DNA of 64,000 nucleotides from an uncultured Alistipes sp. GTDB taxonomy: Bacteria; Bacteroidota; Bacteroidia; Bacteroidales; Rikenellaceae. The stretch is taken from positions 185,540-249,539 of the forward strand of contig CANREN010000001.1 in assembly GCA_947629705.1 (NCBI GenBank), in the 5' to 3' direction. Position numbers and translations under genes: made by a program. The notes beneath the pieces were generated by a model. It had not been told where the DNA came from. It made no database searches and was given only the letters and a program-made list of their open reading frames with translations. This document shows positions 8,166-11,286 of the stretch, one piece after another. Position 1 is the stretch's first letter; every line of letters starts with the position of its first letter.

Positions 8166-9401
8166 CTATTTCCAGTTCAGAATCTTATGAAAATCGAACT
8201 CCTCCGGATCAGGCAGATAGGCCTTGGCCGCTTCGTAATCCGCCGGCACGATGGCATTGAGGATATTCTCGACCACCGCGCAGAACTTGTCCGAATGGAT
8301 GTCGACCAGCCGAGGCGGAATCTTGCCCGTCGTCGGATCCTGCAAATCCTTCAGATAGAGCGGCAAAACGTTTCCCTCGGAATTGACATAGACCATACAG
8401 CCCGTCTTGCCCTCCGAAAAGAGTTTGTAAACGCCCAGACCGAGTTCGGAGCAATAGGTCAGGTCATAGGCGATCGGGGTCTGGCAGCGGATTTCGTAAC
8501 CCAGCTCTACGGGACGGCTCTTGACCTTGAGGCCCAACTCTTTGACGCGTTTTTCGATCAATTCGTTGAAAATATGTGCTTTCGACACCTTGCCCAATTC
8601 GGGATGGCCGTGTTCGTCGTAGGTGAAATGCACGCCGCTCTTGCGGATCTCCTCGTCGGAAAGTGCATGGAACACGCCTTCGGAAATCACGGCCGCACCG
8701 TAATCCATGCCCATGATCTTACGCTTGACGATCGACGAAATGACCAACCGCACGATCTTATCGATCGTGATTTCGGTTTTGTCGAACATCTCGGGAATGA
8801 TGATCATCGGGTAGTGGCAGGCCTCGCCGATACCGAAAGCCAAGTGTCCCGCGCTGCGGCCCATAGCGGCCAACACGAACCAGTTGCCGCTGGTACGGGC
8901 ATCGACATAGACGGCACGGGCGATGACGGCCCCCTTGTCTTTAGCCGATTCGTAACCGAATGTCGGCGTTCCGCTCGGAAGCGGCAGGTCGTTGTCGATG
9001 GTCTTCGGCACATGGATATTGGCGATCGGATACTTCTTCGCCTCCAAGAACTTGGCGATGCGATTGGCCGTCGAAGCGGTATCGTCGCCGCCCACGGTTA
9101 CGAGCAGCTTCACATTGTTGTCGGTGAAGAACTTCAGATTGAAGTTGTTTTCGAAATCGGAATCTTTCGGTTTGAAACGGCTCATCTGAAGGAACGAACC
9201 GCCCTGGTTGAAAATTCCATCGGCCATCCGATAGTCGATGTCCACCGTGCGGGGATCGGGAATGAACAGGCCCGTGTAACCCTCGTGCAGTCCGATCACA
9301 CGATAACCTTTGCGCAGAAACGTCTTTGCGACGCTGCCGACCACGGTATTCATACCGGGTGCAGGGCCGCCGCCGGTCAGAATGGCAATTGCTTCTTTCA
9401 T
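8166..9401 (-). CDS. pfp: Diphosphate-fructose-6-phosphate 1-phosphotransferase (PPi-PFK)
   Basis: Glycolytic phosphofructokinase of 411 residues. Two signature positions mark it as pyrophosphate-dependent rather than ATP-dependent: GGDDT, where the second Asp occupies the place of Gly104 of the E. coli ATP enzyme, and PKTIDND, where Lys replaces Gly124. The N-terminal ILTGGGPAPGMN phosphate loop and GRSAGHLAF substrate segment are intact. An upstream extension to 9491 is excluded because a promoter box covers 9489-9496; the ATG at 9401 (MKEAIAIL) leaves a leader of about 80 bases. PPi-PFK allows reversible glycolysis in many anaerobes. Confidence 0.92.
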   Translation of the reverse strand: MKEAIAILTGGGPAPGMNTVVGSVAKTFLRKGYRVIGLHEGYTGLFIPDPRTVDIDYRMADGIFNQGGSFLQMSRFKPKDSDFENNFNLKFFTDNNVKLLVTVGGDDTASTANRIAKFLEAKKYPIANIHVPKTIDNDLPLPSGTPTFGYESAKDKGAVIARAVYVDARTSGNWFVLAAMGRSAGHLAFGIGEACHYPMIIIPEMFDKTEITIDKIVRLVISSIVKRKIMGMDYGAAVISEGVFHALSDEEIRKSGVHFTYDEHGHPELGKVSKAHIFNELIEKRVKELGLKVKSRPVELGYEIRCQTPIAYDLTYCSELGLGVYKLFSEGKTGCMVYVNSEGNVLPLYLKDLQDPTTGKIPPRLVDIHSDKFCAVVENILNAIVPADYEAAKAYLPDPEEFDFHKILNWK

Positions 9402-9488
9402 CTTCGTTGAATTTGGTTTATTGATTGTTTGAATTAAACGGTCTTGCGTCCGAATCCGCCCGTTTTTCTCAAAATCGGAACGAGCGTC

Positions 9489-9496
9489 CAAAGATA
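9489..9496 (-). promoter_or_regulatory. -7 box of the PPi-PFK operon (TATCTTTG)
   Basis: Perfect TAnnTTTG match on the minus strand, 88 bases before the ATG. The implied 5' leader is long for this window. Confidence 0.65.
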
Positions 9497-9603
9497 CGTC
9501 TTTTTTTCGAAATTAGCCGCACGCTTCCATCGAATTTTCGACCGATGAAAAAGGGACGAATTCCGAACCGGAAATCGTCCCCACAGCCTGTACCATCTAT
9601 CGT

Positions 9604-9804
9604 TTACTTAACGACGGTTACATTCACGGCCTGTTCGCCTTTTGCGCCGTCGGCGACCTCGAACTCCACCGTTTGGCCCTCGTTAAGCGACTTGAATCCG
9701 CCTGCAACAATGCCAGAATAGTGCACGAATATCTCCTTGCCACTCTCCTCCGTAATGAATCCGTAGCCTTTCTTGCTATCGAACCATTTCACCGTACCTG
9801 TCAT
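9604..9804 (-). CDS. Cold-shock-domain protein (CspA family)
   Basis: A 66-residue single cold-shock domain binding single-stranded nucleic acid. RNP1 is KGYGFIT and RNP2 is EIFVHYS, both intact, preceded by the usual [10 protein letters not shown]. Length and ends match CspA-family proteins. In most bacteria such proteins act as RNA chaperones. It is monocistronic, between the PPi-PFK promoter region and the divergent rSAM operon, with a 5' leader of about 30 bases if the weak promoter at 9836 is used. Confidence 0.95.
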
Positions 9805-9906: not shown

Positions 9907-9914
9907 TATATTTG
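9907..9914 (+). promoter_or_regulatory. -7 box of the lipoprotein-rSAM operon (TATATTTG)
   Basis: Perfect TAnnTTTG match, 28 bases before the lipoprotein ATG at 9943. Confidence 0.7.
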
Positions 9915-9942: not shown

Positions 9943-10203
9943 ATGAACAGGAAACTGAAACTCGCATTGGCGGCCCTTCTGGGATTCTCGGCGGCATGTT
10001 CCACCGTAAAAAACGCTCCGTCGAAAGGATCGGGCGATCCGGAAGCCATGACCGATACAACCCGAATCGACCATCCTTTCATGGTCATGTACGGGGTTCG
10101 CATCCCGGACGCTCCGATCATTTCCAAACCCCTGAATCCCGTCCTGCAGCAGGACAGCACCGTTCAGGTTCCGGAATCGCAGCCGCAGCCGGCCGAAAAA
10201 TAA
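9943..10203 (+). CDS. Small lipoprotein of an rSAM/lipoprotein system
   Basis: An 86-residue predicted lipoprotein: basic start MNRKLK, hydrophobic helix, lipobox SAAC with lipidated Cys19. The mature part is short, proline-rich and has no other cysteine. Around residues 47-55 it reads MVMYGVRIP. Family knowledge (from memory) is that Bacteroidota carry pairs of a small lipoprotein and a dedicated radical SAM enzyme (TIGR04134/TIGR04133), and that those lipoproteins often hold a similar YG(V/T)P stretch. This protein is shorter than many and lacks a C-terminal domain, so it could be a minimal or diverged form. The start at 9943 is set by the promoter at 9907. Six bases separate it from the rSAM gene. 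Confidence 0.75.
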   Translation: MNRKLKLALAALLGFSAACSTVKNAPSKGSGDPEAMTDTTRIDHPFMVMYGVRIPDAPIISKPLNPVLQQDSTVQVPESQPQPAEK

Positions 10204-10209
10204 CCGTTC

Positions 10210-11286
10210 ATGGGTTCCGGCTGCAAATTGGGGCTCCGGAAACGATGGGCCCTCGATCTTTTCTCGAATCTTTACAAGGAAACGGTCGCCGAGCATCGGC
10301 TGAACACGCTCTTTTGGGAGTGCACCTTACGCTGCAATCTTGCGTGCCGACATTGCGGAAGCGATTGTCGGGTGGCTCCCGGTGTGCCGGACATGCCGTT
10401 AGCGGATTTTCTGAAGGTGCTCGACGAACAAATCACGCCCCATGTCGATCCGTACAAGGTGTTCATTATCTTTTCGGGCGGCGAAGTGCTGGTTCGCGAA
10501 GATTTGGAAGAAGCCGGTCGCGAAGTAACGCGCCGCGGGTATCCGTGGGGGATGGTTACCAACGGCATGGCGCTGACACCGCAGCGGTTCGAACGGTTGA
10601 TGCAGGCCGGTTTGCGAAGCATCTCCGTCAGTTTGGACGGATTCGAACAGGAGCACAATTACCTGCGGGGCAATCCGTCGAGCTGCGAACGGGCGATGCA
10701 GGCCATTCGGCTCATCGTGCAAGAACCGGCCTTGGCGTATGACGTTATCACTTGTGCCACAGGCGCCCTTATTCCCCATTTGGAACCGTTCCGCGACCGG
10801 TTGATCGCCGAAGGCGTCGAACATTGGCGCATCTTCTCGATCTTCCCGATGGGACGTGCACGCGACGACGCCTCGCTGCGATTGAACGACGAACAATTCC
10901 GCACGTTATTGGATTTCATCCGCCGCACCCGCCGCGAAAAGTCGATCGACGTCAGCTATGCGTGCGAAGGTTTTTTAGGCGGTTACGAAGCCGAAGTGCG
11001 CGACCATTTCTATCAATGCGCCGCCGGAATATCCGTAGCATCGATACGGGTCGACGGAGCCATATCGGGATGTACCTCCATCCGGGGCAATTTCCACCAA
11101 GGGAATATCTATCGCGATGATTTCTGGGAGGTTTGGGAAAATCGGTTCGGCCCTTTCCGCAACCGCGAATGGGCCCGACAAGGGGAGTGCGCCGGCTGCA
11201 AGATGTTCCGTTACTGTTTGGGCGGCGGTATGCACCTGCACGACGACAACGGGCAGCTGCTGTATTGCCATTACCATAAATTATAA
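10210..11286 (+). CDS. Radical SAM/SPASM enzyme of rSAM/lipoprotein system
   Basis: 358 residues. The radical SAM cluster motif is CNLACRHC (CX3CX2C) near residues 43-50, in the context LFWECTLRCN that I recall as characteristic of TIGR04133-type enzymes. SAM-binding features follow (FSGGEVLVREDLEE, VTNGMAL, SISVSLDG). The C-terminus is a SPASM-type domain, with cysteines at QCAAG, SGCTS, ECAGCKMFRYC and LYCHYH that would ligate auxiliary Fe-S clusters. SPASM enzymes commonly modify a peptide or protein encoded next door, here the small lipoprotein six bases upstream. The actual modification is unknown. Cytosolic; action would precede lipoprotein export. Confidence 0.85.
   Translation: MGSGCKLGLRKRWALDLFSNLYKETVAEHRLNTLFWECTLRCNLACRHCGSDCRVAPGVPDMPLADFLKVLDEQITPHVDPYKVFIIFSGGEVLVREDLEEAGREVTRRGYPWGMVTNGMALTPQRFERLMQAGLRSISVSLDGFEQEHNYLRGNPSSCERAMQAIRLIVQEPALAYDVITCATGALIPHLEPFRDRLIAEGVEHWRIFSIFPMGRARDDASLRLNDEQFRTLLDFIRRTRREKSIDVSYACEGFLGGYEAEVRDHFYQCAAGISVASIRVDGAISGCTSIRGNFHQGNIYRDDFWEVWENRFGPFRNREWARQGECAGCKMFRYCLGGGMHLHDDNGQLLYCHYHKL

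Follow-up and report, generated by a model that had tools for sequence, protein, structure and literature searches.

A short Alistipes lipoprotein with an X-Tyr-Gly motif and its TIGR04133 radical SAM/SPASM enzyme: a candidate splicease-like pair

Among the described systems closest to the gene pair considered here are the splicease PlpXY of Pleurocapsa and the TIGR04133/TIGR04134 pairs, in which a radical SAM enzyme accompanies a lipoprotein. PlpXY converts the residue X of an XYG sequence, natively at MYG and LYG (PMC10533398; also PMC11002830), and its tags read GAVAAGYGVVFPG and PIRPLYGLPI, while a PlpA3-derived tag reads YGVVFP (PMC10533398). PlpX has PlpY as its partner and acts on precursors whose leaders are nitrile-hydratase- or Nif11-like (PMC11002830), splicing is context-dependent, only two FtsZ variants among those tried being spliced (PMC10533398), and the spliceotide products are protease inhibitors (PMC11117315). 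The TIGR04133 model carries the status of 'hypothetical equivalog', with no named reaction; the literature search found no paper naming TIGR04133 or TIGR04134, and none on the present pair among the matches listed. The family given for PlpX is IPR026482 (PMC11002830), which we take to be equivalent to TIGR04103, so that PlpX presumably belongs there. A TIGR04103 enzyme (853 bits, cut-off 725) is encoded on a Nostoc plasmid; its neighbours are a Nif11 precursor with IALYGLPPELF at its end and a protein of 71 aa.

The pair lies on the forward strand of the window, that is the whole stretch of 64,000 nucleotides that was analysed, which comes from the genome of an uncultured Alistipes sp. (1.59 Mb, 26 contigs, 94.95% complete). 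The first gene (9943..10203, ATG at 9943, stop codon at 10201-10203) encodes a short lipoprotein of 86 aa, the predicted substrate, and after a spacing of 6 nt it is followed by the ATG of the gene for a 358-aa radical SAM/SPASM enzyme (10210..11286), assigned to TIGR04133 by profile score, Pfam domains and predicted fold. The sequence TATATTTG (9907..9914, forward strand) ends 28 nt before the lipoprotein start codon and is a putative Bacteroidota-type -7 promoter element, judged against what we take to be the consensus, TAnnTTTG; the sigma-70 scan found no promoter of the E. coli type. Both flanking genes, for a cold-shock protein and a Sir2-like protein (named by eye), are on the opposite strand and the pair is therefore a two-gene unit; a third operon gene was considered, and none is present beside the two. 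The pair occurs once in the source genome, which contains no TIGR04134 lipoprotein at E <= 10. It is confirmed as genuine and not a product of chance, since relatives of the lipoprotein are abundant (148 of 150 candidate proteins from the protein database matched it at E <= 1e-3) and both genes are conserved together. A phage origin was rejected, the enzyme being matched by only 4 of 50,697 phage records, all at less than 60% identity.

The enzyme scores 593.7 bits against TIGR04133 (curated cut-off 425) over profile positions 1-349 of 350. The second-best NCBIfam family, TIGR04103, reaches 116 bits, far below its own cut-off of 725. The earlier note had named a better score to an unrelated SPASM family as a result that would speak against its assignment, and there is no such score. 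Pfam finds the Radical_SAM and SPASM domains. The sequence LFWECTLRCN, given in the earlier note as the context of an enzyme six bases behind an 86-residue lipoprotein, occupies residues 34-43, and the coordinates agree with that description. The alignment places the CX3CX2C cluster motif at Cys42, Cys46 and Cys49, followed by Gly50-Ser51 (10333..10362, forward strand), and by Pfam and alignment the SPASM region extends from Cys270 to Cys353 (11017..11268, forward strand), with invariant cysteines at 270, 288, 327, 330, 336 and 353. The AlphaFold model has a mean pLDDT of 82.5, and its fold is similar to those of radical SAM enzymes that mature peptides and proteins, among them SkfB, SuiB, the 5why sactipeptide enzyme, ChlB and an anaerobic sulfatase maturase; no solved splicease structure was named among 12 sequence-search matches or among the best 50 matches of each fold comparison.

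The lipoprotein consists of MNRKLKLALAALLGFSAAC, which is the signal peptide together with the lipobox cysteine, and 67 further residues with a high content of Pro, Ser, Asp and Gln, which by eye look unstructured. By its sequence and by the script's lipobox rule it is a predicted bacterial lipoprotein, with Cys19 (9997..9999, forward strand) in the lipobox SAAC, and the predicted cleavage would leave 68 residues. Neither NCBIfam nor Pfam gives a match at E <= 1, TIGR04134 (curated cut-off 39.8) included, and the Pfam search at the same threshold found no Nif11- or nitrile-hydratase-like leader. The earlier note was thus right that 68 mature residues remain and that a second cysteine and a C-terminal domain are absent, while its filing of the pair under TIGR04133/TIGR04134 holds for the enzyme but not for the lipoprotein. 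Cys19 is the sole cysteine, as in 34 of 36 aligned short relatives, and it is needed for lipid attachment. This bears on thioether (sactionine or ranthionine) formation of the kind performed by SkfB or the 5why/5wgg sactipeptide enzyme: although these are among the closest solved folds (among the matches listed), the lipoprotein lacks the free cysteine of a sactipeptide or ranthipeptide substrate, for which reason this chemistry was set aside as very improbable.

The short form is known from 48 loci (L001-L047 and L051), 36 of which were aligned, the other 12 being omitted only to keep the list short. Across the 36 the columns have a mean identity of 26%, and seven columns are invariant (G14, F15, C19, M49, Y50, G51 and P55) and another seven nearly so (K6, L12, L13, S16, A18, S20 and V52). 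These fall into two blocks, so that selection preserves the signal peptide around LLGFSxACS and the MYGVxxP stretch. The first block contains Leu12-Leu13-Gly14-Phe15 (9976..9987, forward strand), a candidate recognition element for the enzyme, of which Gly and Phe are unchanged in 36/36. The second contains the X-Tyr-Gly core, Met49-Tyr50-Gly51-Val52-Arg53-Ile54-Pro55 (10087..10107, forward strand), within VMYGVRIP at residues 48-55; M, Y, G and P are the same in 36/36, MYG is present in all 48 loci, and the protein has no tyrosine other than Tyr50 (10090-10092). As one of only two strongly conserved blocks, YG-V-P is a natural modification site, and it is likely, judging from the sequences, that the enzyme modifies the lipoprotein there. 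The earlier note's choice of MVMYGVRIP as the candidate site is thereby strengthened; the check it proposed, of whether YG-V-P is the sole conserved part, shows two strongly conserved blocks, the other being that of the signal peptide.

The short form was also described in the earlier note as a reduced model of the system, and this description calls for revision: it is the usual Alistipes form and not a stripped-down copy, and its partner enzymes make up one well-supported clade (8 sampled rows, support 100/100). The lipoprotein profile gave 22 matches at E <= 1e-5 in 61 related genomes, one per genome, and each of the 22 adjoins a TIGR04133 gene; this count does not take in the weaker matches, at E 1.7e-4 to 0.0036. 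One genome of the same genus (G019, 99% complete) has neither the lipoprotein nor the enzyme. The pair occupies a fixed chromosomal place, and in 42 of the 48 short-form loci it lies near the phosphofructokinase gene and/or the cold-shock gene found in the window at 8166-9804 (both named by eye); since the same neighbours are kept, it is mostly inherited with the chromosome. Its closest named relatives are the uncultured Alistipes 'Lapin' isolate genomes, whose enzymes are 94-95% identical. Outside this group the enzyme is rarer, being found in 3 genomes, the source genome itself among them, of an even sample of 395 across the phylum.

How far the motif accompanies the enzyme was followed in 116 loci where tblastn (E <= 1e-60) had located a TIGR04133-like enzyme; of these loci 104 are distinct after removal of identical enzyme genes. 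Adjacent lipoproteins were defined by script, by the lipobox rule only and within 400 nt upstream of the enzyme, which gave 109 ORFs in total; the spurious-looking ones of L040 (538 aa), L067 (44 aa) and L111 were retained in the counts. At least one such ORF is present in 94 of the 104 distinct loci (that of L111 seems spurious). Eight loci have an LLGF-type lipoprotein farther off, upstream in L055, L057, L065, L066, L072, L075 and L078 and downstream of the enzyme in L116, and in two none was found, L113 and L102, the latter lying at a contig edge with about 400 nt of upstream sequence. The earlier note had regarded enzymes lacking an adjacent lipoprotein as evidence against the pairing, and this result favours the pairing. 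The sequence YG occurs in 105 of the 109 adjacent ORFs, long TIGR04134 members included; the residue before the first YG is M (69), E (18), C (12), A (3), L, V or F (1 each). M, E, C, A or L before YG, with P within four residues, is found in 97/109 adjacent ORFs versus 18/129 control ORFs, which are lipobox ORFs from other parts of these loci; of the 18, 16 are, in our reading, TIGR04134-like neighbours, and when they are excluded the motif remains in 2/113. A broader LLGF-type pattern is likewise present in 99/109 versus 35/129. Clustering of the enzymes at 80% identity gave 37 clusters, and 34 of them include an adjacent lipobox ORF; the motif is in at least one member of 34/34 and in every member of 33/34, and at 90% identity it is in 66/70. 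The exceptions have YA for YG (CYACPD in L059, CYAPYD in L057 and L072) or CYG with no near proline (L060, L067, L076 and L109).

The partners fall into several classes: the short Alistipes forms (VMYGVRPP), with the motif about 26-49 residues behind the cysteine; long TIGR04134 forms (EYGTPHVNF and similar), in which a CarboxypepD-like domain comes next; forms such as CVACYGTPY, where the motif directly follows the lipobox; and tiny forms of 51-69 aa. When ten partner lipoproteins of other TIGR04133 enzymes were scanned against TIGR04134 (cut-off 39.8 bits), seven passed (L115 207.1, L054 128.2, L070 101.3, L053 88.5, L081 86.8, L068 81.1 and L117 43.7 bits), L060 (22.3) and a 56-aa protein of L068 (19.3) fell below, and L058 gave no match. 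Two copies of the motif are present in 8/109 adjacent ORFs, for example VMYGVRRP and VMYGVRVP in L045 and MYGPAPMYGP in L073; L056, L064 and L071 have EYG plus MYG in one ORF, and the second copy in L068 (AYGGFWP) is probably due to chance. Repeated copies are expected of a modification site and resemble multi-core precursors. One may ask if YG could instead be a binding or sorting signal, e.g., for lipoprotein surface export, with the enzyme acting elsewhere. The first YG does lie 1 to 49 residues behind the lipobox cysteine in 104 of the 105 YG-bearing ORFs, a region where sorting signals can lie; such a signal is nevertheless improbable, as the short-form lipoproteins occur only beside the enzyme (the 22 genomes above), the other lipobox ORFs of the same loci are devoid of the motif apart from the 2/113, and the motif varies in its distance and can be duplicated.

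Several neighbouring arrangements were seen in the same census. Locus L117 (3598-5074) lies outside Bacteroidota, on a 424-kb plasmid of Treponema saccharophilum, where a TIGR04133 enzyme with a CYGMP lipoprotein (the 43.7-bit match above) adjoins an invertase-like recombinase gene. Locus L065 (321-3973) contains two TIGR04134-like lipoproteins of 28.2 and 25.1 bits, both below the cut-off, a 182-aa protein and, directly upstream of the TIGR04133 enzyme, a second SPASM protein of 348 aa whose best profile is PqqE at 94.8 bits, far below the cut-off. A further radical SAM match lies near the TIGR04133 gene in three genomes (G011:C45, G017:C6 and G022:C6).

Compared with the TIGR04133/TIGR04134 pairs, the window pair is alike in enzyme family, gene order, LLGF-type signal peptide and a YG with nearby proline behind the lipobox; it differs in that the lipoprotein has no CarboxypepD-like domain or TIGR04134 match, and its motif stands 31 residues behind the cysteine, whereas in the long forms the distance is for the most part 6 to 17. 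With PlpXY it shares the pairing of a small precursor with a radical SAM enzyme of the SPASM type, an X-Tyr-Gly core (here M49-Y50-G51, as in splicease substrates) followed by proline, and a common clade in the enzyme tree. In relation to the PlpXY tags, YGVRIP has the same YGVxxP spacing as YGVVFP, and the YGTP/YGVP of TIGR04134 matches YGLP. The window pair is unlike PlpXY in having no Nif11- or nitrile-hydratase-like leader and no adjacent PlpY-like partner gene, and in that the predicted substrate carries a signal peptide and is a lipoprotein. The best explanation is, at chances close to even, that the TIGR04133 enzyme is splicease-like, splicing the backbone at Tyr50 by excision of tyramine and leaving a ketoamide. 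Points against it are the shortfall of the enzyme at the TIGR04103 cut-off, profile scores that do not single out that family, the missing PlpY-like partner and leader, the YA loci and the CYG loci with no near proline, and the dependence of PlpX splicing on context; so short a motif as YG might also be used by a different reaction. That YG is the modified site and that the reaction is tyramine excision are both inferred, and the substrate motif is a stronger argument for the splicease link than the family placement of the enzyme.

Regarding this placement, the enzyme tree comprised 45 enzymes. A clade of 26 TIGR04133, 9 TIGR04103, 3 GDL and 2 related enzymes (support 100/99) is opposed across its branch by NirJ, a NirJ2-like enzyme, TIGR04347, TIGR04053 and MftC, and trees in which TIGR04133 was forced together with the NirJ2-like or the TIGR04053 row were rejected (p-AU 0.003 and 0.009). 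G50 (HCGS at the cluster motif) and S290 in the SPASM region are common to TIGR04133, TIGR04103 and GDL and absent from the five other rows; the three families also have in common, without being alone in it, S51 and S158 (S in MftC as well) and T181 (T in TIGR04053 as well). The tree program flagged places where long branches meet, the one between TIGR04133 and the remaining enzymes included. After TIGR04103, the window enzyme scores 112.3 bits against TIGR03913, 111.8 against AhbD, 108.3 against NirJ2 and 103.8 against TIGR04053, and among 21 TIGR04133 members the best E-values for TIGR04053 (4.7e-41) and AhbD (8.6e-40) are better than that for TIGR04103 (1.2e-37); profile scores alone do not separate the TIGR04103 link from AhbD. 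The sequences therefore lend no more than moderate support to a link of TIGR04133 with the PlpX-type and GDL enzymes, because of the long branches, the lack of AhbD in the tree and AhbD and TIGR04053 profile scores that equal those of TIGR04103.

The main rival to splicing is another radical SAM reaction centred on YG, for example a mycofactocin-like decarboxylation or cross-linking of tyrosine, an epimerisation, or hydroxylation of Tyr50 or of a residue near it. Profiles of AhbD, NirJ2, TIGR04053 and the mycofactocin maturase match all 21 TIGR04133 members scanned, the predicted fold is close to those of enzymes with differing activities, which include thioether formation, the maturation of sulfatases and the epimerase EpeE, and conservation of the motif fits any Tyr-Gly-centred reaction. 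Still, X-Y-G plus P is the pattern of splicease substrates, in the tree the enzyme groups with TIGR04103 and GDL, apart from MftC, NirJ and the NirJ2-like enzyme, and the C-terminal Val-Tyr of the MftA compared here is absent. Such other chemistry is possible but less likely than splicing.

The GDL maturases (TIGR03913), found with DUF1843 peptides, share the tree clade, and their peptides begin XYG, XYA or XYM, with starts such as MLYGGAMTEA and KPYGVAISDA; they differ in that the peptides have about 54-70 aa and no signal peptide and the enzymes are longer (516 aa in L118). Peptides of this type stand with TIGR03913-type enzymes at L118:2028-2743, L119:308-763 and L121:1647-2360, where the sequences MLYGGA, KPYGVA, RPYGPA, PMYAAS and RPMYMAT occur, and it may be, from these sequences, that the GDL family is splicease-like too. 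On a Tropicibacter oceani plasmid (L122:2171-5862), an enzyme near both TIGR03913 (430.9) and TIGR04103 (427.6 bits), below either cut-off, adjoins a trypsin-like peptidase and an M23 peptidase, with no precursor annotated beside it.

If splicing at Tyr50 is the reaction, the course of events might be as follows. Since no leader-binding partner gene lies beside the pair, modification would precede export and take place in the cytosol, the signal peptide serving as leader. The enzyme would meet the new lipoprotein there and grip the signal peptide, through its invariant Gly-Phe, in place of a leader-binding domain; a candidate contact is the N-terminal helix 9-28 of the AlphaFold model, with invariant Arg10 and Leu15. 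Hydrogen abstraction near Tyr50 would be followed by splicing out of tyramine, so that most of the tyrosine is removed and a reactive ketone (ketoamide) remains, as with the cyanobacterial splicease PlpX. The calculated mass change is a loss of C8H9NO, 135.07 Da, and the Tyr50 tryptic peptide of residues 42-53, IDHPFMVMYGVR, would go from 1463.71 Da unmodified to 1328.64 Da after splicing (hand arithmetic). After export and lipidation at Cys19 the spliced product would sit in the outer membrane, where a flexible tether of about 30 residues would separate the ketoamide from the lipid. A ketoamide is a known protease-inhibiting group. The likeliest use of the tethered one would be as an anchored inhibitor, or as reactive bait that catches a protease or another nucleophile, since spliceotide products are protease inhibitors (PMC11117315); variation of X (M, E, C, A) would tune the target.

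The link between X-Tyr-Gly and known splicease chemistry was drawn in this analysis, and if this reading of the motif holds, an 86-residue protein with a single tyrosine could reveal the reaction of the TIGR04133 family. A wider proposal is put forward tentatively, at somewhat less than an even chance: TIGR04133 would be a third splicease branch, and Bacteroidota gut bacteria would carry encoded ketoamide (alpha-keto-beta-amino acid) residues on membrane-anchored lipoproteins whose signal peptide doubles as leader, with Tyr50 spliced before export and the tethered electrophile inhibiting proteases from its anchored position; the short Alistipes lipoprotein would be among the smallest natural forms. 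A two-gene, one-tyrosine system that needs no partner protein would also be a handy tool for placing ketone handles in proteins. If the proposal is true, backbone splicing extends to an inherited envelope protein of gut bacteria, a lipoprotein signal peptide is used as a RiPP-type leader, and reversible protease-inhibiting groups would be displayed on the cell surface.
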